From the NCBI GenBank assembly GCA_027596075.1, contig JADGJC010000167.1, positions 1-64,000 on the forward strand: DNA of 64,000 bases, given 5' to 3'. Numbering within the stretch: position 1 is the first letter of the stretch; each line of letters opens with the position of its first letter. The position numbers and the translations under genes are program-made. Of this stretch, positions 1-64,000 are shown in pieces. Below the pieces are notes generated by a model. That model saw only the letters and a program-made list of their open reading frames with translations, was not told the origin of the DNA and did no database searches. This DNA comes from Rhizophlyctis rosea. Taxonomy: Eukaryota; Chytridiomycota; Chytridiomycetes; Rhizophlyctidales; Rhizophlyctidaceae.

Positions 1-3000
1 TCCCCCCTCTAACTGCCATAACCCAATTCGGCGCCTGCGCCGGCCTCAACTCTACACCCCCAACCGGCGGACTCCTCTCCCTCTCCCCCGCCGAACCTCC
101 AAACCCACCAACCGCCTTCGGCGCCACCGCCGGATCCCTCTGCGGACTCGGATGCGGAACAACCGGCGCATCACCCCCATACGTCCCATTAACATACTCA
201 TTCCCCGCACCATACGACGGCGTCGACTCCTGACTACCGGGATTATACGCCCCACCACCACCACCACTACCTCCCCCAACCCCATCCGAAGACGAACTCT
301 GCGCCGGCGACGGCGTCCGTTCCGCAAACGCCGGATGTTGCTGATGGAGATGATGATGCGGATGGAAATGGTGATGATGTCCTGCACTAACTCCAAACCC
401 CAATCCCTTGCCAGGTAATGACCCGAACTGAACGTGATGCATCTGCTGCGGCTGCGGTTGACCCGGCCCACCCCCACCACTCCTGAAACTCCCCGGACTC
501 CCCGGAACAAAGACGCCCGCAATCCCCTGCTGCGACTGCGACGGACTAGTCGAATACCCGCTTCCAACGGGCGCCGGAGAGTTCCGTCCCCCACCCGCAC
601 CACTAGGTCGTCCCACCGCTCTCGATTGCGGTCCCGGAGATTGCGACCCCATCCGAGATGTACTACTTGTGCTCTCCCGTCCCAAACTATCCCGTCCCAT
701 CGGTGATGATGATACTGGCGGACCAGCGCTAGAGCTCCCACTCGAACTTCTTCCTCCCGCCGCTCCAGCGCTAACCCCAGTATCTCCCTCTACCCCAGGA
801 CTTGCCGGTGCGGCCCCATCCCCACCAACCCCCGAAGCCCTCGCCGACCCACCACCCCTCACTCTCTCCGCCCACTCTCTCCTCGCCCCACTCCTATTAC
901 ACTGCCTAACAGCATTCACAATCTTCTTCCGACTCCCAAAAGTCGTAACCCCCAACTCCTTCAAATCCCCCTCCGACAAACTCAACAGCGTCGGGAAATC
1001 AACCTCCTGATCCACAAAAACCGGAATAAACTTGTCCAAGTCCAACGAATGTAACAACAAACGAATCTGCTGATACGCCTTCGGCCGCTCCCCCTCCAAT
1101 CTAAACAACTCCTCAACAACTTCCTCACTGAATCCCACAACATCCCCTTCTTCCTCGTCCTCTCCTCCTCCCCCACCTCCCAACACCTCCTCACTAAGCC
1201 CACTCCGCCTATCAGCAGGTCCCAACGTCCCCCCAAACTCCCCCTCATCCAACCCGCCCGGCATACTACGACTCAGACTCATTCCCCGAAACTTGGCCGT
1301 CGGAACTCTCACTTGCTCCCCCTTTAACGGCACAGACGTCGGACTAGGCAACTCGTCATCATGAGGCGAAAGCGCCGATCCCAACCCCGTCAAAAGAACC
1401 TCAGAATCAGGCGACATCATATCCTCGTCATCCGGTACATGATGCCCCGACGATCCAGACAACGAATGCTGATGATGATGGTGCCCATGATGCCCATGCA
1501 CGCCACCGCCACCAAACCGTCCAAACACCGTATCCGCCGAACTGGCCCTTTGGAACATGGCGTCTCCCCATCCTGCACCACCACCGCCCTGATTGCTCAT
1601 TACTCTCAACGCAAACGGTCCGCTCCCAACCGTGGTAGCCGCCAACGTGTTGCCCAACATACTCCCACGCCCCGCATCTGGGGACCTCCCATCCCCTCGA
1701 TCGCTCATCTCGCTCAAACTCCGCTTCAACTGCTCGCCGCCGCCGTTGATGTGTACGGACGACGTAGACGGGCGCGGGCCGTCTTCGAACAGTTGTCGGA
1801 GGTTTGGTACCGATTGAGAGGGTTTCGTGGTCTGTTTCAATCCAAAAAGTCAATACCTTCATTCCAATCAAAAAGCAAACACATAAAAAGACCAAACAAA
1901 ACACTCACCCTTCCCAAATCAAACCCAACCCCCATATCATGGAACAAACTATAACTCGCCGGCTCTCCAACCGCCACCCCTCCCCCACCTCCTCCCCCAC
2001 TCCCATTCCCACCCTCCCCAGCCAAAGGCGCCGCCGTAACACTCGCCAAAAGCTTACTATTAAAATGCTGGAACGAATCATAACTCCTCTGCGGCGTCAG
2101 ATTCGCATAACTCCCACTCCTCGGCATACCGCCCACACCACCGCCACTCCCACCCCCCAAATACTCCATCGGAACCTGCTTGCTTCCCAAATACTCCACA
2201 AGCACCTTCCTCGCCCCCTCCCACGCGCTGCTGCCGCGCGGAACGTACATCCAGATCGCGCACTCGGCGGGTTGGGGCTCGTCTGGTGGCGGGGAGTAGA
2301 GGTAGATTTGGACGGAAAAGTCTTGATGAAGGCGGAAAACTAGTTCGGCGAATTCGGGGGAGCGGAGGGCGAAGTGCGCCATGGTTGTTGCGGGGAGATG
2401 GAGGGAGTGGACGTCAGGGATTAAGTCCTATTGAAGGGTTATTTGGAAAAAAACGTTTAGGAAGGGGAAAGGAGTACAAGATGGCATATCGGCGAGGATG
2501 CAAGCAAGAAAAAACCAAAAATCAAGCGGAAAACAACCGATGTACAAAGCTCGATTCTTACCTGCAACTTATGCCTCGCAGCCTGAACCTGCGGCTCCGG
2601 CCCCCCCAACCCAATCTCATCCCCCCCACTCTCCTTCTCCGGAAAAGTCACCTTAACCTTCGTCATAGCCTCCAACTCCCTAATATTCCCTCCCCTCGCC
2701 CCAACAACAACCCGATGCAACTGCCGTGGCACATTAACAACAACATTCACCTCCCCCTTCCCCCCACCAAACATCACCAGCTCCACAACCTCCCCCTTTA
2801 ACGCCTCAAGGTTCGGCGAGTTCTTCGAAGGCGTGCGCGCGATGACGTTGTCTTGGTTTTCAAAGTATCCACCCATGAGGGCGTGTTCCTCGGCGTTTGA
2901 GAATTTGACGTAGACGCCGTGCTTTTTCATGATCCGTTGGATGTTTTTGCCGCCGACCCCGATGATGCGTTTGTGGAAGGCTTCGGGGACGTAGAAGGAG

Positions 3001-5273
3001 ATTTCTGCAGGTAGTTCGTCCTGTAGTATGAAATATTCAAACGTTAATTAGTCGCGGATATATAAAGGATCACACCCAACCATCACCAGCTCCGAAAAAA
3101 CGGCAAAAAGGATTGACACAATAAGCAATCCCCCAAGAATCAAAACAGTCAAAACTCACCTCCAAAAGCGCCAACCCCTCCAAAGCCTTACTCGGATACA
3201 TATTCCACAAATCAATCAACATATTATAATCATTATACCGCGTCTCAAACTTCACATCACTCCCACTCGTCTTAACAATCTTATTAACCTTCCCACTCTT
3301 CTTCCCATTAATAAACTCCCGATGCTCCAACGCCGTCTCCAGCTGTATCTTCGTGCTCCTCACGGGCGCCGCACGGACAAACTCTAATTCTGCGACGCGC
3401 ATGAAGGTGGACTTGACGGCCGCTTCGAGGCCGTAGATTTCGAAGAGGGTGGAGCGGGAGAAGACGACTTCGGCGCGGGCGGATTGGCAGATGCGCCCGA
3501 GGTGGGCGTTTAAAGTTGGGAGTGGGGGGAAGGCTATGGGGGAGGGGGCGCGGGATTGTGGGGGGGTTATTTCGATTACGGCGGCGTAGAAGTCGCAGCA
3601 CTGGTTTCGTAGGGAAAACATAAATCAATGAAATTGTTCCAAAATACTTATCCTACAACTTGCATCCACCCGCTCTGACGTGCGCCAACAATTCATCAAA
3701 AGAAACACGATGCCTCACCATTAGATTCACCGCCCTAATCGCCCGCTCCAAATACACTCCATCGTCGCCAGTCACATGCAGAATATTGCTATTGCTCCCG
3801 AGCAAAGGAATGCTAACAAAGCAGGCATTGTCCGTCATGATCTTCTTAATCTGATCTTTGCAGTTGATCAACATCCAGTCGAGTTTGCGCGGCAGGCAGA
3901 GGATCGCGCGCGTTGCGACAAGGGGTTTCTGAATGGCCGTCAATGCAAAACTTAATGATCCAACTCCGAAAGAGATTGCCGACGGCAAAATTGGCTCCAA
4001 TGTCAAGATACAAAGAACTCACCCTAGTAAAAGCCATCTGCAACAACCGATCCCGCGCCTGCGTCACGCCCATCTGTTCTCCCGTGATATGAATCTGATA
4101 AGGATACTTGTCCGGATCCGCCGCGTCCCCACCGCCTCCAGGCATCCCGCGGTTCGACTGCATGCCGGCAAACGGTGACGGGAGATATATATTTGTCATC
4201 GTGTCGTGCATAACGGCGTCGAGTATACAGCGTTTGCGGCCCGCGATGATGGTTTGGAGTTTCGGATCTAGTTCTACGACTTCGTGGTATAAACCGGACT
4301 ATTGGAGTTGTGATGAGAATGCAAAGTGATTTCGTCATTGAGTGGTGAAACGCAGAAATCAGAAACTCACAAGCTCATCAAACAAAACCAAACACTTCAT
4401 CCGTGCTCTCTCTGCGGCATCGGCACCACCGACGATCTCAACATCCATTGAATCAACATCGGTCGACGAATCACCTGTTACATTCCCACCTCCTCCTGAC
4501 ATGAATCCCGGCGGTGGAATATGATGATGGTGCGGGTGAGGTAGCCGCGGCGGTTTATCGTATGTTTGACTATGTCCCACGCAGGTAATTTGGGTTCGCG
4601 TGCTCTTCATCACGTCATCTAATTTGCGTTTAATGGACAGCCGCATCTCTCCGTTTTCGTTTAGCATGAGGGGGCGGTGAACTTTCACTGTCACCATTAT
4701 CTGTGAAGCCATAAATTATGGTGAGTTGCATGCGATTGTCTACTAAACGCAGTAATTCCACTTCCAGCATAATTATCCAGTCTGACAGCCCGACGACCAT
4801 GGAACATCGGCCAATCTGTTCCATCAAATCCACTCCATCCATCTAAATGTCGCCAAAATACTCTATCACCATGATCTGCCGATCCGCCACTCATCCCATC
4901 TTGCAAGCTACCATGCCGATCGCCAACTATTTCTTCCGCCAATCTCACCCCATCCAACCTGCTGAACTCAATCAAAGCTCACCTGAGTCGGGTTATTTCT
5001 CAATAGCGCGCCCCTGGCAGCCTGCACCTGCCCCGCCGTGCCCGTGACACTTAAAGAGTAATTGAATTCGTACTTGCCCTGTTGCCTGGTGAAGACTGGC
5101 TCTGGCGTGGAAAAGGCGACCTGACATCCGTGCTGGGCTGCAACTTCGTCGCACTGTTGTCGTACGAGGTCTGTGACTTGCGCCTGCAGGGAGGCGGTGC
5201 CCGATTCGATGCCATCATAAGTTGTGACGGGATAGGAGAAAGTTACCGAAGTGATTTGAGCGTGCGGGTCCAT
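1..5273 (-). CDS. Bicaudal-C-like multi-KH plus SAM RNA-binding protein (3' end beyond window)
   Basis: Predicted cytoplasmic mRNA-binding regulator. Exons on the minus strand: 5273-4983, 4700-4371, 4298-4023, 3928-about 3661, about 3603-3160, 3020-2562, 2427-1909, 1831-<1; all checked joins are phase 0 with GT-AG. KH signatures are clear in exon 6: an RIIGVGGKNIQRIM stretch (GxxG = GVGG) and a VVVGARGGNIREL stretch (GxxG = GARG). Exons 1-5 look like further degenerate KH-type folds. Exon 8 encodes a SAM domain (about 890-1085, with LDLDKFIPVF, LSEGDLKELGV and FGSRKKIVNAV). A long Gly/Ser/His/Pro-rich disordered tail stays open to base 1. Several KH domains followed by a SAM domain is the Bicaudal-C arrangement; vigilin has KH domains but no SAM. 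The exon 4/exon 5 junction (3604-3660) has no clean in-phase GT-AG pair and is unresolved. The start at 5273 is the first ATG of an exon that is open in frame. Confidence 0.82.
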
Positions 5274-58327: not shown

Positions 58328-60392
58328 TTACAAACTTCCGACAGATGCCTCTAATTCCTCACCATCTTCCAACTCCTCCTTGACCATACCCAACATCGCC
58401 TGAGCTGACGTCCTCCGCTCATCTGCTCCCATCGTGCTTGCCAAACCTCGCTCACCTAATCCCGCGTACCCATCTATCTCCTTTGTCAGTTCCAACTTCT
58501 CATGCAACATCGCATTGTTCCTGATATTGTCCACCCACTCAGCAATCTGATCATTGGAGGCGACGTTTTTGGCGTAGTTGATGGCGCGACAGACAACTTG
58601 GAGGTTATCAATACTGTGGAGGATTTTCACCCGCTTGCTTCCACAAACGCCAATCTGCTGGTGCTCCTCGTCCGTCGCCACCCTCTCGCTGACGATGCGA
58701 TCAAATGAACCACCTAGAATCCACTCCTCTCCAGATGTTGTGTCCTTCCTGCGATTCCATGCAACAGGCAATCCAGTGATTTGACAATGACCTTGGTGTT
58801 GAGCAAGTTCGGTAAGCTCCTTGCGAGAGACCGTCACTCCTTCCACTCTGTAAGATAATGTTGCTGCCGCCTTTGCTGTGTGCTTTCTGTCGTACCTCCG
58901 AAGACTTCCGTAAAGACTTGTAATGACTGATTTGGTGTTTGTTGATAGGCTTGTTGAACTAGTACAGAGCTGCACATATGGCTTCCCAGCGGATATAACT
59001 TGACGGAAGAAATTTCGGAGTACCTCAACGGGGTAATGGCCCCTGGCCCTGGAAGATATGTGAGTGTTGCTTTCCGCTCTTTATTGAGCTACAATACTTA
59101 CCGATTGCAAGCCACACAGGAAAGAAATACCCTTTGATCTTCATGCGCATATGGGAGTTTACTGAATTTGCGATCAGGAGATGCTGAGAAAATTGGATGC
59201 GTTCCGACAAAGACAAGCCGATCTGTGAAGCAGTGCTCGCATCGCCCTCCGTTGAGACGAAAGAGGGTTTCAGCCATTGCCTGATAGAGTGAAATGGCTG
59301 GGATCTCGGAATTCAGAGACGGAGGATTCTGGACGTTTTGCCGTCTTATATCGGCTTTTCGCATGCCGGCCGCAACTGATCGGAGGAAAACCTTCGCGTC
59401 TCTCTGAAAGAGTTCTGATCAATGATGACAAACTAGATGGGCCATTGACTTGCAGAACTCACTCTATAATATTCCCGCCACTTCCGCTTTCGTTCTTCTC
59501 GCTGCTCTGTAGTCGATGCGTTGCGCCGAGCCTTTTGATATTCACGGCTTCTTTGTCGCATGTCAATTTTTCGCTCTTCCGTCAACTGTTGCCACCATCT
59601 GCTCCTGCGTTCTCGATGTCGATCCCTTTCCTGCAACTTCTGTTCATCCGTGAACAGATCCTGCCGTTTTTTCCGGTTTTCCCAAGCCCGTTTTGCTAAC
59701 TCCTTCTTCTTGTCATCTGTCAAAGAACTCCACCATCTGTTGTGGCGCTCCCGAATCAGCTGTCTTGTTTTCGTTTTCTGTCCTTCCGTCAAAGACTCCC
59801 AATGTTCTCTATTACGAGCTTGACGTTGTTGCCGCACTTCTATCTTCCGTGTATCCGTTAATGAATCCCACCATTTCCTCTTCCGTTCTCGATCTTTGCG
59901 TCGCCGGTCCATCTTTTGTATCTCCGTCAATGCATCCAGCCGTCTCTTGTGCCCCTCTCGATCCCTCTGGCGGATCAACGCCCTGCGTTCATCACTCAAA
60001 GCGTGGCGCCAAGTCATACTTTGTCTTAGACATCCACAGCAAGTTTTCATCAGATTGTCTCCCTGCCAGAATTGCTCAATTGGTTTGAAGTGTTTCCCCT
60101 TTTTGCACCATTGCTTGAGGTTCACAGTGAGATGCTTTGTGGGCTCTTCTGCAACAGAGAGTTGCAGCGGAAATGCTTGTAACCCGCCATTCACCTTCTG
60201 ATTGAGTGTCTGGGCAACAGTTGATGGGACCACCTTGCTGATTGTGGTTGCAAACCACCACTTTTTCAAGCCGATATGAGGTGAACACAAGGACTTTTGG
60301 AGCTGCAACTTCTGTGGTCGAATAAGTCGGAGGCATGGCGGAGAAAAAAGAGCCGGTTGAAGTGAGCGGGGAACGCGTTGAATCGTGAACAT
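58328..60392 (-). CDS. HNH endonuclease-like protein with Cys-rich motif and eight basic 23-residue repeats
   Basis: Exons 60392-59463, 59403-59102, 59048-58328 (phases agree) give 650 aa. Residues 1-45 are Arg/Lys/Leu/Ser-rich without acidic residues, as in mitochondrial presequences. A Cys cluster follows (WCKKGKHFKPIEQFW ... TCCGCL, about 95-125). Residues about 127-310 are eight 23-residue repeats of the form W-x-SLT-[DE]-xxK-x5-R-x6-R-W, strongly basic and probably helical. Exon 2 has GGRCEHC ... LSCVACN, a zinc-ribbon-like pair. Exon 3 has GHCQITGLPV (about 498), FDRI and DNLQVVCRAINYAK, the order of an HNH nuclease of the DRI/DN-x-x-V-C class. The exons lie in separate open frames; in-phase splicing joins them. 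Target and function are unknown; DNA or RNA cleavage is inferred. Confidence 0.78.
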
Positions 60393-61152
60393 GTGAACTG
60401 CAAAACCGTTAATGTCTTCGGGCGTTTCGACCAGGCAATTCGGAAAAGGTAACTTACGACGTCAGCATGCAAATGTGTGGGACAGGAACAAGTTTTGGCT
60501 CTTGGGTTGACATCCCTCTATCCCTCCAGCCTGCCAAACTGGACAGCCCTCCAAGTGAGGCTTATTCTGGGCTGAGATCCATTTGGACTTTTTTGTTTAA
60601 ATGAATGTGTTCCTGGTTCGGACAAGGACCCTCGCGATGCTATCGGCTCTTCAAATCCTCAACACTCCCAACATGGTTCAACAAATTTCAACACTTTGCA
60701 CTGACACTCTTGCTACAAAATCACCTTCCCGAACAATGAATTGAAACCTTGATAAACCGGAATTCCGTATTCTGCAAATTCCGGAATAAAAGTCCTGTGG
60801 ATAAAAGCGTCGACTTTTATGATAAGAAGGTCTCCTCCGTCAGCCAAAAGACGGAGGGGTCCAATTGCTGTACTGTCTTAATTGACGGGCATAAGGGCGT
60901 ATTAGATGTCAGTTTTGATGGAATTTAAGAGACGACCCATTCTCAAGTTCCGGTTTCATGATGTCAAAGGTTTGTGATGTGAGTTGGTACGCTCTTACGC
61001 CGAATTCAGACGTGCACCTGAGCACATGGCACAACATGAAAGGCGCGGCTACCAAAGCATACTTTGTTGAGCATATTCTGTGTGCATTTCTATGAACATG
61101 AATCCTTATTATGATAGAGTTGGTCACGAAGCTAAGTACAACCTTTGCTCAC
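60393..61152. other. Intergenic region with a cluster of inverted repeats
   Basis: About 760 bp between the HNH gene start and the 3' end of the nucleotidyltransferase gene. No gene supported; hairpins lie at 60757-60857. Confidence 0.55.
60757..60857. repeat. Cluster of three perfect stem-loops
   Basis: CCGGAATT (60757-60764) pairs with AATTCCGG (60777-60784). ATAAAAGT (60786-60793) pairs with ACTTTTAT (60813-60820). CCTCCGTC (60834-60841) pairs with GACGGAGG (60850-60857). All three stems are 8 bp without mismatch within 101 bases. Confidence 0.85.
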
Positions 61153-63365
61153 CTAACACAGACATGCCCCATACCATGGATGATCCCCCATCACATGACT
61201 AACAAGAACCTTCCATGTTCCAACTTTCTTTTCGCAAAACGGAACTGGACACGTGTGTAAACTATTCACGTCTTCCTTTGAGAGTGCGACGGGCATCGCC
61301 TTACGAGCACAGGTAGGTGACGGACAGGAGCGCAAATCATGACTTGACCTTCCACCCTTGGGCGGTGATGTGGATCGACGAAACAAGGAGTCCCTCAGCG
61401 ATTTCATGTGCCCTGGCTGAGCTTGATGAGGATGGCTCGTAAGTACCTCCTGCTTGACGAGGATGCTTCGGCATGCTGACACTGGGCACTCAATGTCGGA
61501 CTGTTGGATTTGAGCTGGTGGTGAGGGTGACGGCGTTAGCGGCATGTAGGATTTGAATCCCTTTACATGAAGGTCAGAAGGGGCTGTTGAAGTTGGTGCT
61601 GTGCGGAAAGGAAGTTCGAATGTAAACGGAAATTCACTAGACAATGGTGATGATTCGAATACGGTAGTTGGTGGAGAAGGTATATGCGTTAACGGCATGT
61701 GGGGTTTGGCTTCATTTACATGATTGTCAGAATGAGTTGATGAAGTTGTTGCAGTGCAGGAAGGAGGTTGGAAGGTAAACAAAAATGTCTCAGCCGACAT
61801 GAAGGTAGTAATTGGTGGTGATGGTGGAGGTGTTGACGGCATGTAGTGTTTGATTCCAGTCACATGGATGTCAGGAGGAGTTGACGAAGTCGACGCCGTG
61901 GAGGAAGGAGGTTCGAAGGTAAACGAAAAATCACTAGCCGATGGTGAAGATTGGAAGGTACTACCCGGTGGCGTGGGTGCAGGTGTTGGCGGGTGCTGAA
62001 CGGGCTGAGAGTTTTTCCTCTCGACGGGATGAGAGGCCCACATATGATTTCGCAGCGCCCCTTCAGATGTACAGGGTGCGCAACCGTATCCAGAGGGGTA
62101 CTTCTTCGGTGGATCCTGGACTGTGGGCGGTGACCTTATGGAAGATGTCAAAGCGCTGGCTGATAGCCATTGAGGGAGACTGACCGCAGGGTGTGAATTG
62201 ATCAGATGGCTGTGTATTTCACCGAGCGTTTTGCATGCAATTTGGGGGCAGTGGTAACATTGATAGGGCGGCTGGCGATGGCGGGACAAATGAGCATCAG
62301 CATTCGAAGCATAGTGAACAAAACAATGGCAGCGAGGCTAAATGCAAAGACCAACTATGCATCGCCGACTCACAGTCAAAGCACGTTGCACGGCAACACT
62401 CAAATCGAAAGTTCTATCTTTCATTCCCGTCGGATCCTTATCTCCTAACGCCGTCTGCACGTCCTCCACACTCCTCACCCCCACCAACCTCTTGATGAGC
62501 GCACCAGCTCGATTCCGCCACTGAGTCAAGTCCCCTTGCCACATGAATGTCGCCGGCACCCGTTCCACAATGTGTTTGCATGTCCTAATCATATCCGCAA
62601 GCTCCCTTCCCGCGCCAAGACTTCTCAGAAACATCAGCGACTTCACGAATAACAATAAAACTGCTAGCGGCAAATCCAGCGCGTCCAGGGACGCAAAACA
62701 GGTTTGGTGCTGATGGTAGTTATGGAGCACAATCCACTCGTACTCGATGCCGCATAGGGGAGGTAGACCCGACGGGGAATGGAAGCATTGTGGGGATGTA
62801 GTGAACACCTCCTTGTCCAAAGGATGTATTGGAAAAGGTGATGTCAAAATCGATGGTTGGGGCGTTGGGCGCTATGCGAATTTTAGTGCTACTGATAGCG
62901 CTGAAAACCAAGAACGCACATGTGCATAAGATTGCAGAAAAAGAAAAGAAACAGGCAGACGAACGGCACTGGTTAGGTCGTCTTTCTCCCCTTCACAAGT
63001 TCGACAAGAGAAAGTACTTACTTCGTCTTCGACTCCGACATTCCATCGTTCACCTCCTTCTCTTTCACATCTCCCTTGAACACGCCCTTCAGCGTCAACA
63101 AAAACCTATGCCTCATGGGTTTTGTTATCTCAAAGCTGGCGGGCAGCACAACAATAAAGTCAGCGTCACTGCCAACGATATCGGTCCCTTTCCCTTGCGA
63201 GCCTCCCAACTCGACAATAGCACCCGGGTGGAGGGAACTCATCGCTTCTTCACGAATGAGTTGTTGCGCTTGAGCGTAGAGGGCGCGTACGTGGAGTGGA
63301 ATGGAGTTGTTGGTTATGTATTCGGATACGATGGAGGCCGTGGACTGAAGTGTTGGAACTGTCAT
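61153..63365 (-). CDS. OAS/CD-NTase-like nucleotidyltransferase fused to C2H2-type zinc fingers
   Basis: Exons 63365-63022, 62900-62807, about 62736 (or 62709)-62374, 62271-61153, about 640 aa. The first exon carries LGGSQGKGT (G54-G-S) and SDADFIVVLP (catalytic Asp67/Asp69); exon 2 gives TIDFDITF (third Asp). The GGS-x-GKGT / SDAD / hDhD order is that of 2'-5'-oligoadenylate synthetases and related CD-NTases. Exon 3 is helical (LPLAVLLLFVKSLMFLRSLG, the expected core helix). The donor at 62374 is in phase with the acceptor at 62271, which starts PPYQCYHCPQIAC, so the zinc-finger frame, which has no ATG of its own, is the C-terminus. It has Cys/His motifs (CAPC ... H ... H; CPVPFCEKKVGTWKVLVSHV with H-x4-H) and three about 50-residue Ser/Pro-rich repeats. 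The exon 2/3 junction (weak donor GGT-GTTCAC) is unsure; a frameshift is possible. Confidence 0.75.
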
Positions 63366-64000
63366 GTTTTTTGACAGCTATGTAGGACGTTCCGTTTTTG
63401 GCCCAGACGAATGGTATTTTGCGACAAGAGGCGGAAAAGAATGAACGGATTGGTGTGCGCTGATGGACGCAGAGCGCTCTGTTCAGCACTGTGGGCCCAG
63501 CGTGAACATGTTATGGGAAAGGCAAGGAACACTTCAAGACTTCAAATCTCGAAACCTTGAGAAATACTCCGCCCAAATGTCTCATTGAAAAGACCTGTCA
63601 ATCATGGGTTTGATCAGACCGTCCAAGCCCCCGGGCCAACTGAGACCCACAACTCCTTTCCAGCCGTCCTATTTCCACACAGACGATGGCGACGAATGCT
63701 TGTTTAGGAGCACTGACCTGCCGTTCTGTCTGATATCATATGCTCAACTTCCCATGCGATGTTGCATTCTGGAGATTCGGTTCTAGTTACCTGATGCGAG
63801 AAGGTGACGGTGGCACAGCATGTTTGCTTACGAATGTGGCGATGTTGGGCCAAGCCACATAGCATTGGTCCTTGAAATGGTGATATTTCACTTCTTCTCG
63901 AAATGTCTGCAAGGTGTATTTGCACTCGAGCATGCGAGGACTTCATGGGGCATTGAAAGGCTTCTGAACTTCGTGGCTATGGGTGGTTCAATTCGTCGCT
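63366..64000. other. Right edge, no supported gene
   Basis: About 635 bp upstream of the nucleotidyltransferase start. It should contain its promoter. Short frames here (for example 63704-63946, minus) may be parts of a gene beyond the window but show no feature. Confidence 0.5.

Follow-up and report, generated by a model that had tools for sequence, protein, structure and literature searches.

The stretch analyzed here, hereafter the window, comprises 64,000 nucleotides on contig C76 of the 44.1-Mb genome of the soil chytrid Rhizophlyctis rosea (Chytridiomycota). Positions 61,153 to 63,365 contain, on the minus strand, a putative gene in which a nucleotidyltransferase (NTase) domain precedes C2H2 zinc fingers. 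A first-pass annotation had described an intact NTase of the 2'-5'-oligoadenylate synthetase (OAS)/CD-NTase type that is spliced to the fingers and might act as a messenger-making sensor. Our data confirm this observation in part and support its interpretation in part. The gene is divided into the following features:

63022..63365, minus strand: exon 1, with the ATG, a helix, and GGSQGKGT plus GSDADF (catalytic Asp 1 and 2); NTP_transf_2 at 24.1 bits; aligned with the paralogs
62901..63021, minus strand: intron 1, GTAAGT...CAG, phase 2, 121 nt
62771..62899, minus strand: exon 2a, AISSTKIRIAPNAPTIDFDITFSNTSFGQGGVHYIPTMLPFPV; third catalytic Asp in DFDITF
62752..62770, minus strand: frame break, 44 nt fewer than in the paralog L2, R-x-x-K helix gone (DNA alignment)
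62374..62751, minus strand: exon 2b (GIEYEWIV...), helical C-terminal portion of the NTase domain; frame differs from exon 2a
62272..62373, minus strand: proposed junction intron, GTGAGT...CAG, 102 nt, phase 0; in-frame C2H2-like finger with TAG
61153..62271, minus strand: exon 3 (fingers), 372 amino acids plus stop; two strict C2H2 patterns, three repeats

Both the three-Asp motifs of the NTase and the C2H2 fingers are genuine. Exon 1, with the translation GGSQGKGTDIVGSDADF, exceeds the Pfam NTP_transf_2 cut-off of 21 bits, and splicing across intron 1, in phase 2, continues it into NAISSTKIRIAPNAPTIDFDITF, leading to DFDITF; across the exon 2a stretch, identity to the paralog P0002 is 59%. 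Features of a Pol-beta-fold nucleotidyltransferase are present, namely, a G-S motif, an SDxD motif, and, on a strand of the palm fold, the third Asp. The strict C2H2 patterns of exon 3 lie at exon residues 5-27 and 341-364, with three Pro/Ser/Thr-rich repeats of ~48 to 51 amino acids each between them. Shuffles contained a mean of 0.018 such patterns and at least two in 4 of 2,000 cases, and it is by pattern alone that the window copy is assigned to the C2H2 class. As stated in the first-pass annotation, the head of the finger region has no ATG.

The window gene has relatives in the R. rosea genome, and domain order, catalytic residues, and intron positions are conserved among them. L2 (P0002, HDV00_005247) is located at 44.3-42.7 kb of contig C176 (G000:C176), ~8 kb from L3; P0003 is on contig C475, and P0004, whose sequence begins at SDxD, was not located in this genome, where its best match is 63%. 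C2H2 fingers lie downstream of an NTase, on its strand, at three of four loci examined (window, L2, and L3), a count that excludes P0004 and a partial copy at C475:2224-2436. By pattern, L2 has four fingers, which also score above the PF13894 and PF00096 cut-offs, and L3 has two. A phase-2 intron inside the NTase domain has the same place and phase in all four gene models (window, L2, L3, and P0003), and a phase-0 junction donor (GTGAGT at 62373 in the window) is found at the same aligned position in the window, L2, and L3 (spacing counted by eye). The candidate junction introns measure 71 nt in L2, 60 nt in L3, and 102 nt in the window. In L3 and the window, the stop-to-stop frames of NTase and fingers are contiguous and separated by one stop codon; in L2, the NTase and finger open reading frames (ORFs) differ in frame and would be linked by the 71-nt intron proposed there. 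Since L2 requires this frame-changing intron, bare stop-codon read-through at the junction was set aside. As far as sequence goes, shared order and intron positions support NTase and fingers being one fused gene. The R-x-x-K helix is kept in all four other members (L2, L3, P0003, and P0004). L2 and L3 appear to be intact and under constraint; their divergence (dN of 0.65 versus a saturated dS of ~2.9) indicates that these copies have been retained.

The window copy itself is damaged. Its NTase core had been called intact, and GGSQGKGT, GSDADF, and DFDITF are indeed present, but 44 nt are missing relative to L2, and therefore, the frame is broken between ~62771 and 62751 and the R-x-x-K helix is lost. 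The in-phase splice to the fingers stands insofar as its donor is shared in position and phase with two paralogs, but the junction intron (62373-62272) contains, in frame, C-x4-C-x12-H-x3-H with a TAG at one pattern position (1 of 5,000 base shuffles gave this pattern in a post hoc test). This interrupted finger has therefore either turned intronic or acquired a nonsense codon. Overall, the window copy is probably decaying or unusually spliced; we consider decay rather likely, with an assembly error as the main alternative.

A functional window copy would be conceivable if a weak 64-nt intron (62806-62743), as proposed in the first-pass annotation, spanned the frame break and the R-x-x-K helix were dispensable; the product might then be a regulatory pseudoenzyme. 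GT and AG are present at these positions, exon 3 is open over its 372 amino acids, and its repeats keep the frame. However, the intron would open with GTTCAC, a poor donor, and would excise what is coding sequence in the paralogs, the helix is lost, and the exon 3 repeats are under little constraint (dN/dS, ~0.6-1.15). A functional window copy with this bridging intron is quite unlikely. A similarly low probability applies to NTase and finger ORF being two adjacent separate genes or gene remnants. Without splicing, in-frame stops lie between both parts at the window and L3 loci, no transcripts were seen, and the public model of L2 (P0002, 306 amino acids) reads through the donor and stops short of the fingers; this model appears to be truncated at an unspliced stop and omits the four C2H2 finger patterns directly downstream. 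Two separate genes are difficult to reconcile with the same order and equally placed phase-0 donors at three loci and with a window finger region that has no start codon at its head; moreover, the L2 fingers match themselves alone in the genome at E ≤ 0.01, and the L3 fingers match themselves plus one weak place (E = 0.083).

The NTase family was judged from several comparisons. The proteins may be OAS-like second-messenger synthases, in which nucleic acid on the fingers would switch on the synthesis of an oligonucleotide signal. Consistent with this, they share the GGSxxKGTxLxGSDxD motif, occur in multiple copies within a single species, and have an R-x-x-K that resembles R210 and K213 of OAS1, residues involved in ATP binding. 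A PDB profile search with the family alignment A1 retrieved OAS2 (E = 5e-4) and OAS1 (E = 0.026), and hhalign of the helix plus GGSxGKGT...SDAD core against OAS (four sequences from three of seven OAS-type entries) gave 90.2% over 49 columns, with a score of 46.5, the highest of 40 column shuffles reaching 19.0. However, OAS1 drops to E = 0.047 with alignment A2, and the full-length hhalign run (60 column shuffles) gave 30%; in the later run (40 column shuffles), the part after the second Asp gave 0.3%, within the shuffle range. Pfam scans of the window ORFs, L2, L3, and P0003 gave no OAS1_C (PF10421) match at E ≤ 1, and a genome search for this domain, run without a positive control, was empty. 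The OAS-like Asp spacing claimed for the window copy (D2-D3 of 65 versus 71 in OAS1) is not seen in three paralogs (51-54), and the Asp and Lys spacing of the family is compact, unlike OAS1. Against terminal uridylyltransferases and non-canonical poly(A) polymerases (TUT/PAP), hhalign gave 70.6% over 134 columns with five sequences and 67% with four; the set consisted of L046, L048, and L049 in the first run and of L048, L049, Trf4, TUT4, and TUT7 in the later run (L046 dropped). Sixteen PF01909 places are present in the genome, of which four were taken and L048 alone was checked as Trf4-like. The predicted palm had GLD-2 and URT1 as top structural matches, tied with Pol mu/lambda, with residues 19-131 effectively compared; OAS and cGAS, suggested earlier as structural references, were not among its 50 matches (VIA rows), which excludes neither. 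Single-sequence PDB searches gave no convincing NTase match for L2 or P0003, and Pol mu (E = 0.38) and OAS1 (E = 0.73) for window exon 1. The second half of the domain had no PDB match at E ≤ 10. The best matches in PADLOC ("Cyclase," E = 0.02, window exon 1; PDC-S09, E = 0.023, P0002) and NCBIfam (allantoinase, E = 0.036) are not convincing, and a genome search for STING_LBD was negative, its control likewise being empty. A survey recorded OAS-like CD-NTases in 8 of the 12 eukaryotic supergroups; Fungi are named there among the groups that include well-sequenced species lacking all immune families sought, with no claim that this extends to every fungus (PMC10732462). The label "OAS/CD-NTase" is thus only partly supported by these comparisons, and an OAS-like messenger synthase is possible but doubtful. 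A fungal OAS-like branch with C-terminal C2H2 fingers as nucleic-acid sensors that trigger messenger synthesis, expanded and partly decaying in one chytrid in line with an antiviral or anti-element arms race, is unlikely.

RNA tailing guided by the fingers seems to us more plausible than messenger synthesis, both being unproven. In our model, the window gene is a probably decaying or oddly spliced member of a small R. rosea family of Pol-beta-fold NTases, with C2H2 fingers at three of the four loci, whose likeliest use is finger-guided RNA tailing (probability, roughly 0.45). In L2 and L3, the palm with its three Asp and the R-x-x-K helix would transfer nucleotides independently of a template, and the fingers would choose the acceptor, RNA (or DNA); nucleotides would most likely be added at RNA ends, as by zinc-finger-bearing uridylyl/adenylyl transferases. 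We infer the joined NTase-finger transcript, catalysis, the substrate, and the role of the fingers. Several results weigh against this model in addition to the end point of the public L2 model. No fingers were found among the downstream ORFs listed for P0003, and no Pfam finger model matched the window fingers above its cut-off. NTP_transf_2 scores are below the cut-off of 21 in L2 (15.7 bits) and L3 (13.4 bits), P0003 has no match at E ≤ 1, and the window exon alone passes. On the core alone, OAS outscores TUT/PAP (90% versus 71%), and no Pfam match to a PAP-associated domain was found at E ≤ 1 (window ORFs, L2, L3, and P0003). Finally, the structure model is shallow (6 alignment rows; mean predicted local distance difference test [pLDDT] score, 54.5; palm alone usable; pLDDT of 34.7 from a single sequence), and its palm matches are tied across several families.

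A protein-database search with A1 retrieved P0002, P0003, and P0004, all from R. rosea. The search with L2 found its own record P0002 alone (8,000 candidates scored), and that with the window protein had no hit at E ≤ 10; because both missed known paralogs and are therefore insensitive, they and the contig scans point only weakly to an absence of relatives outside R. rosea. Scans of viral and prokaryotic contigs with A1 gave 161 (viral_contigs) and 82 (genome_contigs) pattern matches and no confirmed relative. In the literature search (open-licence papers), no report of an NTase-then-C2H2 order was found, and the part of PMC6723221 consulted contains nothing on fungal OAS.

Some observations were made in the surroundings of these genes. 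The partial copy on C475 (L044; ~2224-2436) is a stop-containing, P0003-like NTase fragment (49% identity) and may be another trace of decay within the family. Also near P0003, an ORF on the plus strand (2890-4976) combines a TIR-like "WFISHSW," not recognized by Pfam at E ≤ 0.01, with a TPR array behind it (TPR_12, E = 1.9e-32), an arrangement resembling a receptor. In the window, open frames at 58328-60461 (minus strand) have repeated basic "SLT...RR..RW" units beside Cys/His-rich, HNH-looking stretches (CEHC, CVAC); two ORFs scanned with Pfam gave no family above cut-off. A 189-amino-acid frame antisense to the NTase exons (62805-63374, plus strand) probably just reflects coding on the opposite strand.

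If fingers and NTase act as one protein, their domain order is without report in the open-licence literature searched. The window copy is re-graded from intact to probably broken, and L2 and L3 are the copies to test. They offer a small, testable family in which nucleotide messengers made by early fungi can be weighed against zinc-finger-guided RNA tailing.

With animal and protist OAS, the R. rosea family shares the leading helix, GGSxGKGTxLxGSDxD, the R-x-x-K helix, and a [DE]FD strand with the third Asp, but it differs in having no OAS1_C match, a much shorter distance between the third Asp and the Lys, an unalignable second half, and a C2H2 tail. DNA polymerase mu/lambda and AadA-type adenylyltransferases have the same palm fold and Asp pattern, but scores are low or tied and no matching flanking domains were found. 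The compact palm resembles that of TUT/PAP (GLD-2, URT1, TUT4/7, Trf4, and Tailor), which supply the top structural matches in a tie with Pol mu/lambda, whereas the KGT in the G-S motif and the missing match to a PAP-associated domain set the family apart; to our knowledge, it also has no GG..GSY-type nucleotide-recognition motif of that class. An NTase with C2H2 fingers is not without precedent, since, according to the part of PMC6326804 used here, additional domains, RRM and zinc fingers among them, are present in most TUTases, and Tailor possibly bears a C2H2 finger. This possible finger of Tailor is N-terminal, whereas the fingers of the R. rosea family are C-terminal.
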